Positions 3,494 to 39,441 of a DNA stretch of 64,000 nucleotides are shown in pieces. Under the pieces are notes generated by a model that worked only from the letters and a program-made list of their open reading frames with translations, ran no database searches and had not been told where the DNA came from. The first letter of the stretch is position 1, and every line of letters starts with the position of its first letter. The translations under genes were made by a program, and so were the position numbers. Source of the stretch: Verrucomicrobiales bacterium (GTDB lineage: Bacteria > Verrucomicrobiota > Verrucomicrobiia > Limisphaerales > CANJXF01); assembly GCA_947478865.1 (NCBI GenBank), contig CANJXF010000019.1:1-64000 (forward strand), given 5' to 3'.

Positions 3494-5870
3494 ATTTGGA
3501 CGCAGCCGCCTTCAAACCCGGCAGCCAGCGCGTCAGCAGGTCGTGGCAGTTTAAGACCTTTTCCGCGAGATCCATTGGCACGTAGTAGTATTGGTTCGAG
3601 GCTTCGAATCCGATTCGCGAATCGCGCGTTTGGATTTGATACAACCTTTGAGCAAGCGCCATTTCGCTCCTCAACGTTTCCTCCAGTTCCTTGAGGACTT
3701 GAGCGACGGAATTGGGCGAGCGCTTTTTATCGGCGAGCTGGCCGCGCAATTGGACGAAGCGCGATTGATTGGCCGTGCTACGAAAATGGATTGCGGCTGC
3801 TTCCGCCACGCTCAATTCATCGTGGAAATTTTTTTGCTGAATCGCTGAGAGCTTGACGCCTTTCGCGGAAGACTTCAGCCCGACAATCGCCCGATCAAAA
3901 CCATTCGCGATTTTCTCCATTTGCCCAGCAAACACGTCGACCGGATAGGCCCCGCGCCAGCCATTGAGATCGTCGTAAGGAAACCCGACCATGGTGGCCG
4001 CGAAGCCGGTCGGTTTCTCCCACAGCAGGTTCGATGGACCGGCCTGCATTGGCGTGGAATAGAGTCCGCCGCCAAAAGGGAATTCGCTGAAGGCCACGCT
4101 GAACTCATGCCACGCCTTCACCACGGCGGGAGCGAGTTGCGGACCAAAACGCCGACGCGCGACAAGCTCCATTGCGTCGGCAGGAGTCATCGCGGCGTTC
4201 TGGCCGATTTCGGAAACGACTTCGAGATTAGGCGAGGGATAACCGCCCAGCGTCCAGCCGAGCATCAGGCCATTCACGCTGGCAGAACGGAGATTCGCGG
4301 CGTGTTGAGCCACGTTTTCCACGGCGGGAATGTAAGGCGTCGCAGAAAGCTCCCAGGTATTGCCAGCCTGAACCTTGGCAAGGGTTTTAAGTCCGCGCTG
4401 GCGAGCCATCGCCCAATGCTTGGTCGCACGCGGTCCGGGACCGACGGTAGAAATGGAATATTCGCCAATCACGCTTTTCACGCCGCCGCGTTCGATTGGA
4501 ATGCTCCACTCGCTCACACTCATCAGTGCTACCTCGGCGGGCAGCCGATCAATGATTTCCTGAACCCATCCGTCGGACCAACCCCAATCCCAGGCAATCA
4601 ATTGCGTAGCGCTGCCCGCCTTGCGAATGCCGTCGTGGAGCAAGCGGTGGAATTCACCAATGACTTCGCCCGGCGCGCGCAGGCTGCAGCGAGGGCATTT
4701 CGCTCCGCCGTAGTGCGACCAGCAGTTGGTCAAATTCTCCGAACCGCTGATCGTGAAAAATCCAGCAAGGTCCGGCACCTCGCTGCAGATCGAGAAAACG
4801 GCATCGGTCAGATATTTCTGGACGTCGGGATGACTGGTGCAAAGCGTGGCGTGGTCGCCTTCAGTCACACCCTTCAATTGCGGGTGGGTATCGAAAAAAG
4901 CCAGCGGCATGGCGCGTGGTTCGTTGAGATAAAGATAAATTCCGATGCCGTGTCGGCGGGCGCGGGCAACCAGAGACCGGAGATTTTTCAAGCGCTCTTG
5001 GAATCGAACACTGAGCTTTGCGTCCCACGGGAACGGAGCAAGCTTGTAAAGCACAGCTTGCAACCAAACGCCATTGACTCCCGCCGCAGCCATGCGGGCG
5101 AGATAACCATCCGGGTAGGGATCGGCTTCTTTTTCGAGCAGGGGATCGCCATAAAGCGCGAAGTAGGAATAACAAAAGCGGGGTGAAAACGTGGATTTGC
5201 CAGGGGATCCAGCCTCGCGGGCAGCGGAAGGTTTAGAGGCGAGCTGCGCCGCGAAATGGAAAAGCGGCTCCTCCAGTTCGCCCACGCCGTTGGGAAAGTC
5301 CTGCCGGATGAGCGCGGCAATATCCTGCGCGCACTGTCGAGAGTTCTCAGCAGGTGGAGCGTATTTTAGCGGTTCGCACTTCGGTTTCAGGTTGCCGAGC
5401 TTTACAAAAAGAAAATCGTCTTCCCGGAGCGTAAAAGCCATTTTCTCGGGAGTCCATGCGAGCAATTCCAGCAGCTGTTCGTAAGGCAATAAATGCCAGT
5501 TGCGCTTGATCACCGTGAGGTAGGAGCGGCGCTGTTGATCGGCCGTAATGCGCGGCGGTTTACTCAGGCCCATTGATTGCCCGATTCGCAGAATGTCCGC
5601 CGCTTTAGCTCCTACCACTTTGGCGAGGCGATCGGCGGGAACGAGTTGCCAGTTGCGCCAGACGTAAGCGTGCAGGCGATCCGGAAAATGCGAAAATCCG
5701 AGAGCGCCCGGAGCGCCGCCCCTGGGTAAATCGGCAACGGACAATGACTTGCCGCCGGATCCAATTTCCTCGGCAAAAAGTGATCCAGGAAAAAACGCCA
5801 ATCCCCCGATGGAAAGGGCAGAGGCTTTAAGAAAGTTGCGGCGATTAAATTCCTCGAATGATTGGTTCAT
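3492..5870 (-). CDS. Tat-exported TIM-barrel protein, glycoside hydrolase-like
   Basis: The ATG at 5870 is chosen because it places a twin-arginine signal (NRRNFLKASALSIGGLAF) at the N-terminus of a 792-residue protein. Residues about 240-560 look like a TIM barrel: a sequence of strand/helix units including GVNGVWLQAVLYKL, HGIGIYLYLNEPRAM, LAGFFTISGSENLTNCW and QLIAWDWGWSDGW, similar in style to GH20/GH67-type enzymes. A CPRC motif sits near residue 392. The C-terminal 200 residues are helical. Exact substrate and glycosidase activity are not shown by the sequence; the call is by fold impression. It could be a polysaccharide-processing enzyme at the cell envelope. Confidence 0.6.
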   Translation of the reverse strand: MNQSFEEFNRRNFLKASALSIGGLAFFPGSLFAEEIGSGGKSLSVADLPRGGAPGALGFSHFPDRLHAYVWRNWQLVPADRLAKVVGAKAADILRIGQSMGLSKPPRITADQQRRSYLTVIKRNWHLLPYEQLLELLAWTPEKMAFTLREDDFLFVKLGNLKPKCEPLKYAPPAENSRQCAQDIAALIRQDFPNGVGELEEPLFHFAAQLASKPSAAREAGSPGKSTFSPRFCYSYFALYGDPLLEKEADPYPDGYLARMAAAGVNGVWLQAVLYKLAPFPWDAKLSVRFQERLKNLRSLVARARRHGIGIYLYLNEPRAMPLAFFDTHPQLKGVTEGDHATLCTSHPDVQKYLTDAVFSICSEVPDLAGFFTISGSENLTNCWSHYGGAKCPRCSLRAPGEVIGEFHRLLHDGIRKAGSATQLIAWDWGWSDGWVQEIIDRLPAEVALMSVSEWSIPIERGGVKSVIGEYSISTVGPGPRATKHWAMARQRGLKTLAKVQAGNTWELSATPYIPAVENVAQHAANLRSASVNGLMLGWTLGGYPSPNLEVVSEIGQNAAMTPADAMELVARRRFGPQLAPAVVKAWHEFSVAFSEFPFGGGLYSTPMQAGPSNLLWEKPTGFAATMVGFPYDDLNGWRGAYPVDVFAGQMEKIANGFDRAIVGLKSSAKGVKLSAIQQKNFHDELSVAEAAAIHFRSTANQSRFVQLRGQLADKKRSPNSVAQVLKELEETLRSEMALAQRLYQIQTRDSRIGFEASNQYYYVPMDLAEKVLNCHDLLTRWLPGLKAAASK

Positions 5871-31864: not shown

Positions 31865-32821
31865 ATGGCATCCAAGACCAAAAAATCCACTGAGCCGGTA
31901 AAAGGCGGGTTGCGCCTTGGACTGTGCTGCCAGTTCGCGCGCGAGCCGATCAAGTTCCGCACGACGACGGTGACGGCGATGTTGCGCTTAACCCAGCCCC
32001 AGCGGCTCGCGCGGCTGGCGGAGTTGTGCCGGAGCAATGCCGACGCCCTGATGGCCGCGTTGCAGTTCTGCGCGGCACATGGCATCGGCGCGTTCCGCAT
32101 CAACAGCCAGATTCTGCCGGTGAAGGCACATCCCACGGCGGGTTACGACGTAGCCGAGTTGCCGGGCAGCGCGGGCCTGGTGGCGCGCTTCCGGGAGTGC
32201 AGGGAGTTCGCCCTTCAAAACAATCTGCGGCTGTCGTTTCATCCGGATCAATTCGTGGTGCTGAATTCGCCCAATCCCAAGACGCTGGCGCATTCGCTGG
32301 CGGAACTGGTCTATCAGGCCGAGGTCGCCGAATGGGTTGGCGCGGACACGCTGAACTTGCACGGCGGCGGCGCGTATGGCGACAAGGTGGGGGCTTTGCG
32401 GACGCTGCGGCAGACCATCGAACGCCTGCCGGCGGCGGTGCGCTCGCGGCTCACGCTGGAGAACGATGACAAGGTTTACACGCCGGCGGATCTGCTGCCG
32501 GTGTGTGCGGATACCGGCGTGCCGCTGGTTTACGACGTGCATCATCATCGTTGCCTGCCCGACGGGCTTAGCGTGGCCGAGGCCACCGAGCGGGCGCGGA
32601 CCACGTGGAAGACCGAGCCGCTGTTCCACCTCTCCAGTCCGCTCGAAGGCTGGGACGGGCCAAAACCGGAGCGGCATCACGATTACATCAACGTGGCGGA
32701 CTTTCCCCACGAGTGGCTGGGCTGGCCGCTTACTGTGGAAGTCGAGGCCAAAGCCAAGGAGCTGGCGGTGGCGAGACTGATCGCCGATCTGCCCGGGGAA
32801 GCGAGGTCGCATGGCCGCTAA
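31865..32821 (+). CDS. uvsE: UV damage endonuclease UvsE
   Basis: The ATG at 31865 gives 318 residues. Conserved metal-site motifs of the UVDE TIM barrel appear in order: LRLGLCCQF, LSFHPDQFVVLNSP, LNLHGGGAYGDK, LTLENDDKVYTPADL and DVHHHRCLPD. UvsE nicks DNA 5' of UV photoproducts and some other lesions, in the cytoplasm, independently of UvrABC. It overlaps the next gene by 11 bases, so the two are translationally coupled. An alternative repair nuclease of this kind is patchy in bacteria and often found in light-exposed species. Confidence 0.93.
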   Translation: MASKTKKSTEPVKGGLRLGLCCQFAREPIKFRTTTVTAMLRLTQPQRLARLAELCRSNADALMAALQFCAAHGIGAFRINSQILPVKAHPTAGYDVAELPGSAGLVARFRECREFALQNNLRLSFHPDQFVVLNSPNPKTLAHSLAELVYQAEVAEWVGADTLNLHGGGAYGDKVGALRTLRQTIERLPAAVRSRLTLENDDKVYTPADLLPVCADTGVPLVYDVHHHRCLPDGLSVAEATERARTTWKTEPLFHLSSPLEGWDGPKPERHHDYINVADFPHEWLGWPLTVEVEAKAKELAVARLIADLPGEARSHGR

Positions 32822-34049
32822 CAAGCTGATCCTCGTCACCGGAGCAACGGGTTATGTCGGCGGCCGTTTGTTGCCGCTCTTGGTGGCAGATGGCTGGCGG
32901 GTGCGATGCCTCGCGCGGCAACCAGAGCGTCTGCTATCGCGCGTGCCGGCGGGCGTCGAAGTCGTGTCGGGCGATGTGCTCAATGCCACATCGCTGTCGG
33001 CGGCCATGCAGGGTGTGGAAGCCGCGTTTTATCTAGTTCATTCGATGGGCGCGACGGGTGATTTTGAAACGCAGGACCGTGAGGCCGCGGAGAATTTCGC
33101 CGCCGCCGCGCGCGCCGCGGGCGTACTGCGCATCATCTATCTCGGTGGCCTGGGCGAGGATGAGCCGGATTTGTCGGCGCACTTGCGGAGCCGGCACGAG
33201 GTGGGCGAGCGATTGCGGGCGCACGCGGTGCCGGTGATCGAGTTCCGGGCATCCATCATCATTGGCTCGGGCAGCCTGTCGTTTGAAATGATCCGCGCCT
33301 TGGTGGAGCGGTTGCCGGTGATGGTAATGCCGCGCTGGGTGCGGGTGACGGCGCAACCCATCGCCATCGGCGACGTGCTGGATTATCTCCGTGCGGCACT
33401 GACCCTCAAGCTGGAGGGCAGCGTCGTGGTCGAGATTGGCGGGCCGGACCAGGTTTCGTATGGCGAGCTGATGCGCGAATACGCACGGCAGCGCGGGCTG
33501 CGGCGGTGGATGATCCCCGTGCCCCTGCTGACTCCGCGGCTGTCGAGTTTGTGGTTGGGCTTAGTGACGCCGCTCTATGCCCGTGTCGGACGCAAGTTGG
33601 TGGACAGCCTTCGTCACCCGACCATCGTGCGCGATGCTTCCGCGCAGCGTCTTTTCGCCATCCGCATGGCCACGCCGCTGTTCGTGGTGCTGCTGCTGGT
33701 GGAAATCTCCGATGTGATCTTCGCGGTGGATTCCATCCCGGCGATCTTCGCGGTCACGAAAGACCCGTTCATCGTCTATACCTCGAACGTGTTCGCCATC
33801 CTCGGGCTGCGCTCGCTCTACTTCGCGCTGGCGGGCGTGATGGACAAGTTTCATTACCTCAAGATCGGCCTGGGCGTGGTGCTGACGTTCGTGGGCGTGA
33901 AGATGATCCTCGCGCATACGGCGTGGAAGATTGACACGCTGGTTTCGCTCGGCGTGATCGTGCTGATCCTCGCGACGAGCGTGGTCATGTCGCTGCTGCG
34001 ACCGAAGAAGATCGTGATGCCGGTCGTGTCGCCCAAAGTGGTGAGCTGA
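32811..34049 (+). CDS. SDR (NAD(P)-binding epimerase-like) fused to C-terminal half of TerC
   Basis: A 412-residue frame with two unrelated parts. Residues 1-285 are an atypical SDR with the dinucleotide motif VTGATGYVGGRLL and typical YLVHSMG and GGPDQVSYGELM segments, ending at a piece (PTIVRDASAQRLFAIR) that normally runs on for more residues. From M286 the sequence is TerC: ATPLFVVLLLVEISDVIFAV, DSIPAIFAVTKDPFIVYTSN and AILGLRSLYFALAGVMDKF, the last four or so membrane helices of this metal-ion/tellurite-resistance transporter family. The N-terminal half of TerC is absent. The join is in frame and inside a fairly similar sequence, so deletion or misassembly is likely. It overlaps uvsE and is 2 bases from the channel gene. 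Confidence 0.85.
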   Translation: MAANKLILVTGATGYVGGRLLPLLVADGWRVRCLARQPERLLSRVPAGVEVVSGDVLNATSLSAAMQGVEAAFYLVHSMGATGDFETQDREAAENFAAAARAAGVLRIIYLGGLGEDEPDLSAHLRSRHEVGERLRAHAVPVIEFRASIIIGSGSLSFEMIRALVERLPVMVMPRWVRVTAQPIAIGDVLDYLRAALTLKLEGSVVVEIGGPDQVSYGELMREYARQRGLRRWMIPVPLLTPRLSSLWLGLVTPLYARVGRKLVDSLRHPTIVRDASAQRLFAIRMATPLFVVLLLVEISDVIFAVDSIPAIFAVTKDPFIVYTSNVFAILGLRSLYFALAGVMDKFHYLKIGLGVVLTFVGVKMILAHTAWKIDTLVSLGVIVLILATSVVMSLLRPKKIVMPVVSPKVVS

Positions 34050-34051
34050 AC

Positions 34052-34909
34052 ATGAACCCATTCATCAAAATCGTCGCAGCGAAAGCGTTTCACCACGTCA
34101 TTGTGGCCGTCATCGTGTTGGCGGGCGTCATCGCGGGATTGGAAACCAGCCCCGCGATCATGGCGCAACACGGAGCGTGGCTGCACGGCTTGGACAAATT
34201 CATTCTCGCCATCTTCATCGTCGAGGCGCTGCTCAAGATGGCGGCGCATGGTCGCCAGCCGTGGCGCTATTTTGCCGACGGCTGGAACGTGTTCGACTTC
34301 CTGATCATTGTGATTTGCCTGTTGCCGGTGGGCGGACCGTTCGCTGCGGTGCTGCGACTGGCCCGGGCGCTGCGGTTGCTGCGGCTCGTGAGTGCGTTGC
34401 CCAAACTGCAACTACTCGTCGGAGCGCTGCTGAAAAGTTTGTCCGCGATGGGTTACGTCAGTCTGCTGCTCGGGCTGTTGTTCTACATCTACGCCGTGGC
34501 GGGCATTCATCTGTTCGGAGCGCATGACCCGAAGAATTTCGGTTCGCTGCCGACGGCCTTCCTGTCGCTGTTCCGGCTCGTGACGCTGGACAACTGGGCG
34601 GACTTGTTCAACGGACAACTGCCGCACGTGCCAGGCATCAAGGTTGCGATCTACTTCGTCACGTTCATCGTGTTCGGCACGATGATCATCCTGAATCTAT
34701 TCATCGGCATCATCATGAACAGCATGTCGGAGATGCACGCCGAGATCGCCGAGCGCGAGACCGGCGCGACCACGCTGGAGCATGAACTCAAGTCGCTCGA
34801 GGCCGAGCTGAAAGCCGCGCAGGCGCGCCTCGCCAGCTTGCGCCGCAGGTGCAGTCAGGCCGGGTTGCAAGAGGCGCGGCGGGAACGCCCGGAGGAACTC
34901 GCCGCATGA
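34052..34909 (+). CDS. Voltage-gated cation channel (BacNaV-like) with CavAb-like filter
   Basis: A 285-residue six-helix channel subunit. S4 carries four arginines at every third residue (R102, R105, R108, R111). The pore has T178-L-D-N-W-A-D184, between S5 and S6, where sodium channels of this family read TLESWxx. S6 (YFVTFIVFGTMIILNLFIGI) is followed by a coiled-coil tail (LEHELKSLEAELKAAQARL), as in NaChBac-type tetramers. An aspartate at the first filter acid and at the last position is the change used to make the calcium-selective CavAb from NavAb, so calcium permeation is predicted. The start codon is 2 bases after the SDR-TerC stop; the stop overlaps the next gene by 4 bases. Confidence 0.88.
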   Translation: MNPFIKIVAAKAFHHVIVAVIVLAGVIAGLETSPAIMAQHGAWLHGLDKFILAIFIVEALLKMAAHGRQPWRYFADGWNVFDFLIIVICLLPVGGPFAAVLRLARALRLLRLVSALPKLQLLVGALLKSLSAMGYVSLLLGLLFYIYAVAGIHLFGAHDPKNFGSLPTAFLSLFRLVTLDNWADLFNGQLPHVPGIKVAIYFVTFIVFGTMIILNLFIGIIMNSMSEMHAEIAERETGATTLEHELKSLEAELKAAQARLASLRRRCSQAGLQEARRERPEELAA

Positions 34910-35217
34910 AAAAGTTTTTCATCGCGCTCATCGGCGGGACGGTGCTGCTCGTCGGCGTTGCGTTGCTGGTGTTGCCCGGGCCGGGCCTGCCGATCATCGC
35001 TGCCGGACTGGCGATCCTCGCGACGGAATTCTTCTGGGCGAAACGGGCGTTGCGCCGGGCCAAGGGTGCCTTTGCAAAAGTTCGCCGCAAATCTGGTTTG
35101 AAAGATTGGCTGAACCGACGCTGGTTCGCGCGCGCTGGCAACAAGCGAGCCGTTCCCCTTCACTCCGCCCCCTTGGGACATCCCATTCCCAAACCACCGC
35201 CCGCCTCGACGCAGTAG
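34906..35217 (+). CDS. PGPGW-family small membrane protein
   Basis: Starting at the ATG at 34906 (ATGA overlap with the channel stop) gives 103 residues: a first helix (FFIALIGGTVLLVGVALLVL), the LPGPGLPIIAAGLAILATEF element that defines the PGPGW family, and a basic tail. Function of the family is unknown. The overlap shows co-translation with the channel. A longer upstream start would lie inside the channel gene and is not favoured. Confidence 0.8.
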   Translation: MKKFFIALIGGTVLLVGVALLVLPGPGLPIIAAGLAILATEFFWAKRALRRAKGAFAKVRRKSGLKDWLNRRWFARAGNKRAVPLHSAPLGHPIPKPPPASTQ

Positions 35218-38556: not shown

Positions 38557-39441
38557 CTAGACGTCCAGCTTGGCTCCGCACTGCTGGCAGTGGCGGGCGC
38601 GGGCGTCGTGGCCATCCCATCCGCATTGATGGCAGTGCCGATCGGAGCGGCGGCGGGATATCTCGCGCCCGAGTTCTGCACTAACGATGCCAGTCGGCAC
38701 GGCCAGGATGGCAAACCCGGTCAGCATGATGATGGACGCCATTATTTTGCCGAGGACCGTGACGGGCGTCAGATCGCCATAGCCGACGGTGGTAATGGTG
38801 ACGATGGCCCAATAGATCGACTGAGGGATGTTGCTGAACCCGGGATTAGCCGAGTGTTCGAGCAGGTACATCACCGTGCCTTCCACGCAGACGAGGGCGA
38901 GGACGCTGAAAAGAAAAACCGATATCTTCGCGCGGCTGGCCAGCAGCGCGTTGAGGAGAACACCCGCCTCGCCGATGTGATGCGCCATCTTGAGCACGCG
39001 GAACATCCGCAGCAGGCGCAGCACCCGGAGGATCATCAGGTAATGGGAGCCGGCCAGGAATAGCTCCAGGTAGCCAGGCGCAAAGGCGAGAAGATCGATG
39101 ACGCCAAAGAAGCTGGCGGCATAATACATCGGCCGCCGCACCACCCAGAGGCGAAGGATGTATTCGATCGTGAACACGAGAGTGAACGCCCACTCAGCGA
39201 CTTGAAAGACAAGCTCATGAGAGGTTCGGAGCGAGTCAACACTCTCCAGCGCCACCACGAGCACGCTGATCCCGATGAGCCAGAGTAGAACGATATCGAA
39301 GGCTCGTCCCGCGGCTGTGTCCGAAAGGAAGATGATCCGCCAAAGCCTTTCGCGAAACGGGCCCGAGGCGGGTTCAGTGGAACTGAACGACGCGCGTTGC
39401 CCCGAAGGGTTCGTCGGCGATTTCATCGGTGCGGCTAACAT
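38557..39441 (-). CDS. Voltage-gated potassium channel with C-terminal zinc ribbon
   Basis: A 294-residue six-helix channel. The pore contains T-T-V-G-Y-G-D (217-223), the potassium selectivity filter. S4 is RVLRLLRMFRVLKMAHH with regularly spaced Arg/Lys. After S6 (SIIMLTGFAILAVPTGIVSA) the tail has a zinc ribbon, C270-x2-C273 and C285-x2-C288 (CHQCGW ... CQQCGAKL). This arrangement of KvAP-like channel plus CxxC ribbon is seen in some bacterial genomes, but its function there is unknown. ATG at 39441 or 39426 are both possible starts; neither has a clear ribosome site. Confidence 0.9.
   Translation of the reverse strand: MLAAPMKSPTNPSGQRASFSSTEPASGPFRERLWRIIFLSDTAAGRAFDIVLLWLIGISVLVVALESVDSLRTSHELVFQVAEWAFTLVFTIEYILRLWVVRRPMYYAASFFGVIDLLAFAPGYLELFLAGSHYLMILRVLRLLRMFRVLKMAHHIGEAGVLLNALLASRAKISVFLFSVLALVCVEGTVMYLLEHSANPGFSNIPQSIYWAIVTITTVGYGDLTPVTVLGKIMASIIMLTGFAILAVPTGIVSAELGREISRRRSDRHCHQCGWDGHDARARHCQQCGAKLDV

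Follow-up and report, generated by a model that had tools for sequence, protein, structure and literature searches.

Which ions does a bacterial voltage-gated channel admit when its selectivity filter naturally carries aspartates, and what would such a channel do for the cell? CavMr is the only native prokaryotic calcium channel described in the literature we searched. Both points are raised by a gene in a 64,000-nucleotide stretch of Verrucomicrobiales DNA (positions 1 to 64,000 of the forward strand of contig CANJXF010000019.1, assembly GCA_947478865.1), hereafter the window. An initial annotation had suggested that this gene may encode a native calcium-permeable channel with a filter like that of the engineered calcium channel CavAb.

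The channel subunit and its selectivity filter

The gene (34052–34909, +) encodes a 285-residue subunit with six transmembrane (TM) segments, whose Ion_trans domain (PF00520) scored 162.5 bits in a Pfam search. It starts 2 bases past the stop of the upstream open reading frame (ORF), and its own stop overlaps the start of the next gene in an ATGA at 34906–34909. The AlphaFold2 model, computed for one chain from 43 sequences, has a pLDDT of 85.8 and a pTM of 0.55. Its pore is composed of the P1 helix (residues 166–177), the filter, and the P2 helix (182–189), with a pLDDT of about 94–95. S6 continues into the C-terminus as a single unbroken helix (195–278), with lower pLDDT at residues 221–250; the tail past S6 (residues ~225–278; 34724–34885, +) is coiled-coil-like. 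S4 bears the regularly spaced arginines R102, R105, R108, and R111 (34355–34384, +), which are invariant in every relative with a TLD filter. The four-arginine S4 and the coiled-coil tail that the initial annotation described as intact are hence both present, the latter as a predicted helix. The top structural matches of the model are a CatSper chain (Z 18.1), NavAb (17.4), CavAb (16.6), and NaChBac (16.3), with root mean square deviations of 3.4–4.6 over 217–263 residues. The NavAb and NaChBac chains align over about 220 residues. As matches no more than 1 Z apart count as tied, the NavAb and CavAb entries tie, and a structural search cannot tell Na+ channels from Ca2+ channels. The one-domain, six-TM Ion_trans architecture with a P1-filter-P2 pore and regularly spaced S4 arginines is that of the BacNaV superfamily, a protein family already known. 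Judged by fold and homology, the window gene encodes a BacNaV-type channel that is predicted to be voltage-gated. A second Ion_trans gene in the window (38557–39441, −) encodes a K+ channel whose filter is TVGYG and whose C-terminal CxxC...CxxC tail is zinc-ribbon-like.

The filter, T178-L-D-N-W-A-D184, is encoded in frame at 34583–34603 (+), exactly where the initial annotation had placed and numbered it. In BLAST alignments, T178, L179, D180, N181, and W182 match T175, L176, E177, S178, and W179 of NavAb and the TLESW of NaChBac, and the modelled pore agrees with this placement. The NavAb alignment ends at A183/S180, and the pairing of D184 with M181 comes from its ungapped continuation; the NaChBac alignment continues across the position of D184, with a gap placed adjacent. 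In the MAFFT survey alignment, D184 occupies filter column 7. The NavAb and NaChBac reference sequences used here match PDB entries gaplessly, with one residue off in NavAb entries 5yua and 4ekw. D180 and D184 therefore both align inside the filter, a point on which the initial annotation had staked its proposal. From the alignment to NavAb residues 177 and 178, D180 is the high-field-strength (HFS) residue and N181 is HFS+1. The filter differs from the TLESW of canonical BacNaVs, and position 4 is Asn instead of the Gly of CavMr. As in CavAb, there is Asp at HFS and an acidic residue at position 7. The statement that aspartates occupy both key positions thus holds for D180 but not for the second key position of CavAb, HFS+1 (NavAb 178), which is Asn181. 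The motif is real and not a chance occurrence, as it recurs in tens of related genomes and the gene is under purifying selection (dN/dS 0.13–0.19 versus five relatives). No occurrence of "TLDNW" was found in a literature search that covered few subscription papers.

A clade of channels with TLD filters

Relatives were collected, among the matches listed, from a scan of 84,980 genomes and from searches of 388 phylum-, 320 order-, and 384 class-level genomes; a family-level search returned the window's own genome only. We built a tree of 104 rows comprising NavAb, NaChBac, NavCt, and 101 loci, in which CavMr and NavPp are represented only by loci with their filter sequences. The TLD filters form one group of 41 rows with an SH-aLRT of 99 (100/99 in a careful 51-row tree). 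This group is nested among ancestor-like channels with TLEDWTD or TLEGWxD filters, away from the TLESW channels. The window channel lies outside both the Bacillus group and the NavAb-like group, the placement looked for in an ancestor-like BacNaV (AnclNav). The pore phylogeny suggested in the initial annotation, run here as a BacNaV tree, thus puts the window channel in a TLD clade among the ancestor-like BacNaVs. All named TLD records are from Verrucomicrobiota except L022, which is labelled Proteobacteria; since L022 nests with a Pedosphaera row, we suspect that the label is wrong. About 24 of the 320 genomes of the window's order have a TLD-group channel.

Eight loci were added later. One of them, L213, carries TLEGWVD and lands inside the TLD group, without a starred placement; TLD is hence the usual filter of the group and no absolute rule. 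The L213 channel (genome G884, 4475–5278, −) has exactly the calcium filter of CavMr. Another, L215 (TLEGWTD), is sister to the TLD group in the same extended tree, where it is weakly placed.

Positions 4 and 6 of the filter covary. Asn at position 4 accompanies Ala, Gly, or Ser at position 6 in 30 of the 41 TLD rows, and Asp at position 4 accompanies Lys or Arg at position 6 in the other 11. The latter state requires at least two changes on the careful 51-row tree, with the filter columns kept in. Two loci found later, L190 and L193, have Val and Thr at position 6 with Asn at position 4, still uncharged. The filter charge per subunit is −2 in all filters with Asn4, and −1 or −2 in those with Asp4. 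TLDDWKF occurs in L029, L037–L040, L050, and L051, and Asp at HFS+1 is also combined with Lys or Arg at position 6 in L026, L031, L032, and L034. As homotetramers, these sister channels would have a ring of basic residues in the filter, and the two filter solutions would then be natural experiments on selectivity. The P2-S6 loop of the TLD group measures 18–19 residues, compared with a median of 36–38 in other ancestor-like channels. As far as we searched, in literature including few subscription papers, neither the TLD clade nor its filter covariation nor the linkage to exporter genes described below has been reported.

Exporter genes beside the channels

In the TLD group, a TerC/Alx gene is followed directly by the channel gene, or a CNNM-CBS-CorC_HlyC gene lies between them. 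Further upstream, there are often HPF and a divergent LysR-type gene, and downstream PGPGW or ExoD. The regulator occurs in 16 of 30 TLD loci and is called NhaR-like, as its assignments reach 200–202 bits against a cut-off of 219. The neighbouring TerC/Alx and CNNM/CorC proteins of the relatives are ordinary members of their families; the TerC of L004 matches TIGR03718 (Alx type) with 454 bits, above the cut-off, which those of other relatives exceed as well. L025 and L036 lack TerC and have an adjoining P-type ATPase that matches the PMR1-type Ca2+ ATPase family best, at 708–713 bits and thus below the cut-off of 798. No TerC, CNNM, or P-type ATPase exporter adjoins the channel in L009, L024, and L030. 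On the 10-kb stretch of L213, the scan for neighbour families such as TerC and CNNM gave no match.

Where 2.4 kb or more of upstream sequence is available, a same-strand upstream TerC is found in 29/34 TLD rows versus 0/49 other BacNaVs, and TerC, CNNM, or a P-type ATPase within 3.5 kb in 31/34 versus 1/49. An exporter gene (TerC/Alx, CNNM/CorC, or PMR1-type Ca2+-ATPase) lies within 3.5 kb in 38/41 TLD rows versus 0/36 Verrucomicrobiota controls, the flank being 1.5 kb or less in some of the latter. The Fisher p of ~1e-17 overstates the independent evidence, because it ignores shared ancestry and the linkage is largely one inherited arrangement; it should be read as strong conservation and not as so many independent events. 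The sister-lineage locus L215 also has TerC upstream. An exclusive linkage of one strict TLD clade, which we had considered, is weakened by this locus and by the position of L213 inside the group. In L163 (genome G099), NhaR-like, HPF, and TerC genes (the last 83% identical to the TerC of L004) stand together with no BacNaV found beside them, which implies that a metal gene cluster either gained the channel or lost it. In the literature searched, we found no voltage-gated channel described within TerC/Alx or CNNM/CorC operons, and Rfam detected no riboswitch, yybP-ykoY or other, before TerC in the window and 14 loci.

Several further observations concern these neighbourhoods. ORFs of 598–678 residues in L016, L021, L047, and L052 resembled TerC-channel fusions, and were rejected because their N-terminal part is an out-of-frame open shadow in GC-rich DNA. 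A TerB-like/DUF533 protein is encoded directly 5' of the BacNaV genes of L045, L113, L039, and L050, which represent two filter types. An odd pyruvate-kinase-barrel protein whose N-terminus is greatly extended is encoded near the channels of L030, L025, and L036, and an Mrp/NuoL-like antiporter subunit near those of L025 and L030.

The window's own locus reads as a degraded version of the clade's cluster. In the upstream ORF (32811–34049, +), an in-frame fusion joins an NAD(P)-binding SDR/NmrA part to the C-terminal half of TerC/Alx (33657–34046, +), starting at about TerC residue 185. Pfam matches cover NAD_binding_10/NmrA and only positions 98–177 of TerC, and the NCBIfam match covers positions 185–303 of TIGR03718. 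This half shares 91% identity with the TerC of L004, which is full-length and immediately precedes the channel there; its dN/dS is 0.17, and the homology to L004 and L005 starts at 33656–33659. The junction may be a real deletion or an assembly junction. No separate copy of the missing N-terminal half was found in the window's genome, which elsewhere has two other TerC genes (C2 and C5) and three CNNM genes. Downstream of the channel, a small PGPGW membrane protein is encoded (34906–35217, +; PF09656, 58 bits), as is also the case in L004–L010 and L012. The L009 locus keeps its channel with no TerC within 5 kb upstream. Together with the window, it indicates that an adjoining TerC is not required for persistence of the channel. 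As only half a TerC gene is present locally, any exporter that acts together with the window channel, if one does so at all, must be encoded at another locus.

Permeant ions and role of the channel

We consider it about an even chance (probability roughly 0.5) that the window gene encodes a voltage-gated cation channel, permeable to divalents yet weakly selective, that works together with metal exporters. Four subunits would assemble into a homotetramer of the ancestor-like BacNaV type that opens on depolarisation. Given Asn at HFS+1, rings of four Asp each at HFS and at the outer rim would most likely confer permeability to Ca2+, perhaps to Mn2+, and to Na+, with a Ca2+ selectivity below the high level of CavAb. 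In the clade, the channel usually belongs to a metal-handling cluster of NhaR-like regulator, HPF, TerC, CNNM, channel, and PGPGW or ExoD. In the simplest cycle, depolarisation would let divalent ions enter as a signal or by way of uptake, and the presumably co-expressed exporters would return them. TerC proteins can metalate exported enzymes (PMC10550928). TerC may do so here instead of removing metal from the cytosol, a point against the preferred reading; the channel might then supply the metal. The more specific view is possible though somewhat doubtful that this is a native clade of voltage-gated Ca2+/Mn2+ channels in a TerC/Alx-CNNM metal cluster, an influx-efflux unit for signalling or metal cycling whose filter swaps between D-N-W-(A/G/S)-D and D-D-W-(K/R)-x.

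Filter chemistry alone, with Asp at HFS and Asn at HFS+1, leads one to expect a mixed, divalent-permeable channel, unlike CavAb. NsvBa (TLDSWGSG) does not discriminate between Na+, Ca2+, and K+; the Asp at its HFS site admits Ca2+ and Ba2+, which D186E abolishes, and the variant TLDSWAS retains Ca2+ and Ba2+ permeation with K+ reduced (PMC4225499). These data support divalent permeation in the window channel, and so do the exporter linkage, the PMR1-type ATPase in place of TerC, and the CavMr filter in L213. N181, at the position whose Asp is the most important one in CavAb, counts against it: Asp or Gly at HFS+1 are the residues tied to Ca2+ selectivity in one-domain channels, a single S178D change in NavAb (TLEDWSM) is reported to raise Ca2+ over Na+ permeability ~100-fold, and an HFS+1 D-to-N change renders animal Cav channels Na+-permeable (PMC10120453). 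So does the behaviour of acidic filters in ancestor-like channels. NavPp (TLEDWTD) conducts Na+ and is blocked by Ca2+, and equipping it with CavAb/CaChBac-type filters produced no Ca2+ permeation, while TLEGWVD among ancestor-like BacNaVs is Ca2+-selective (PMC7041947). This pair makes motif reading unreliable, and it cannot alone decide selectivity. The exporter-less loci L009, L024, and L030, the lack of a TerC or CNNM match around L213, and the truncated TerC of the window also weigh against the divalent reading.

A channel resembling NavPp, selective for or dominated by Na+ and blocked by divalents at low affinity, in a cluster serving Na+ or alkaline-pH stress, appears rather unlikely to us; its acidic filter would bind Ca2+ but pass it poorly. 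The NhaR family takes its name from Na+-responsive regulation in E. coli, and the frequent NhaR-like regulators fit such a role. So do the induction of E. coli alx by alkaline pH (PMC9603457) and the supply of Na+ for pH homeostasis by Bacillus Nav channels (PMC4225499); the regulators and alx thereby count against the divalent reading, and the grouping with ancestor-like BacNaVs and the Asn at HFS+1 also favour Na+. However, the HFS residue is Asp, and it is Glu at this site that makes NsvBa Na+-selective (PMC4225499). Moreover, the recurrent neighbours, among scanned families that left aside Na+/H+ antiporters, are divalent exporters; an Mrp/NuoL-like antiporter subunit was seen near L025 and L030. 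A genuinely Ca2+-selective native channel, the natural CavAb of the initial annotation, seems quite improbable. Its two acidic filter rings give −2 per subunit, the same as TLEGWVD of CavMr, the exact CavMr filter occurs in one clade member, and a PMR1-type Ca2+ ATPase is among the neighbours, but HFS+1 is neither Asp nor Gly, and the P2-S6 loop is short whereas CavMr is described with a long, disulfide-bearing loop (PMC10120453). What stands of that proposal is a BacNaV-type channel with Asp at HFS and position 7 and an intact voltage sensor and tail; its calcium permeability is made plausible by the HFS Asp and the divalent-exporter context, and the close likeness to CavAb falls with N181 and the ancestor-like grouping.

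The linkage to TerC and CNNM could also simply reflect a gene order passed on by descent, without functional significance; the channel would then have an unrelated role. This can hold with either ion choice. The TLD rows are one clade, so the linkage is possibly one ancient event; G099 retains NhaR-HPF-TerC with no channel found, and the window and L009 keep a channel with half a TerC or none. We nevertheless regard this explanation as unlikely, since the linkage persists down to ~56% channel identity and in several Verrucomicrobiota families whose other neighbour genes vary, CNNM moves (L015), a P-type ATPase replaces TerC in two lineages, and the sister-lineage L215 also has an upstream TerC. 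The preferred reading, a weakly selective divalent-permeable channel working with exporters, gives the clade a concrete and testable role through its predicted HFS Asp ring, invariant voltage sensor, and repeated exporter linkage.

Among known systems, the AnclNavs NavPp (TLEDWTD) and CavMr (TLEGWVD) share with the TLD clade the six-TM one-domain fold, the acidic position 7, and a place among TLEDWTD/TLEGWxD channels. The TLD clade differs from them in that its HFS residue is Asp where they have Glu, HFS+1 is Asn (or is Asp when position 6 is Lys/Arg), the P2-S6 loop is short, and the channel gene is linked to TerC/CNNM. The engineered CavAb (TLDDWSD) and CaChBac (TLDDWAD) resemble the window channel in Asp at positions 3 and 7, and CaChBac also in Ala6. 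However, HFS+1 of the window channel is Asn and not Asp, and the canonical backbones are distant, with 37% identity over aligned parts. NsvBa of Bacillus alcalophilus has a natural HFS Asp, a neutral HFS+1, and the Gly6 seen in some TLD members, whereas the window channel has an acidic position 7 and no GxG at positions 6–8, and its clade lies apart from the Bacillus channels in a tree without NsvBa. CatSper, likewise built of one-domain subunits, is the top structural match, within 1 Z of NavAb, and CatSper1 has an HFS Asp; it differs as a eukaryotic sperm heterotetramer, with Asp at HFS+1 in CatSper1 and, as reported, Gly in CatSper2/3/4 (PMC10120453).
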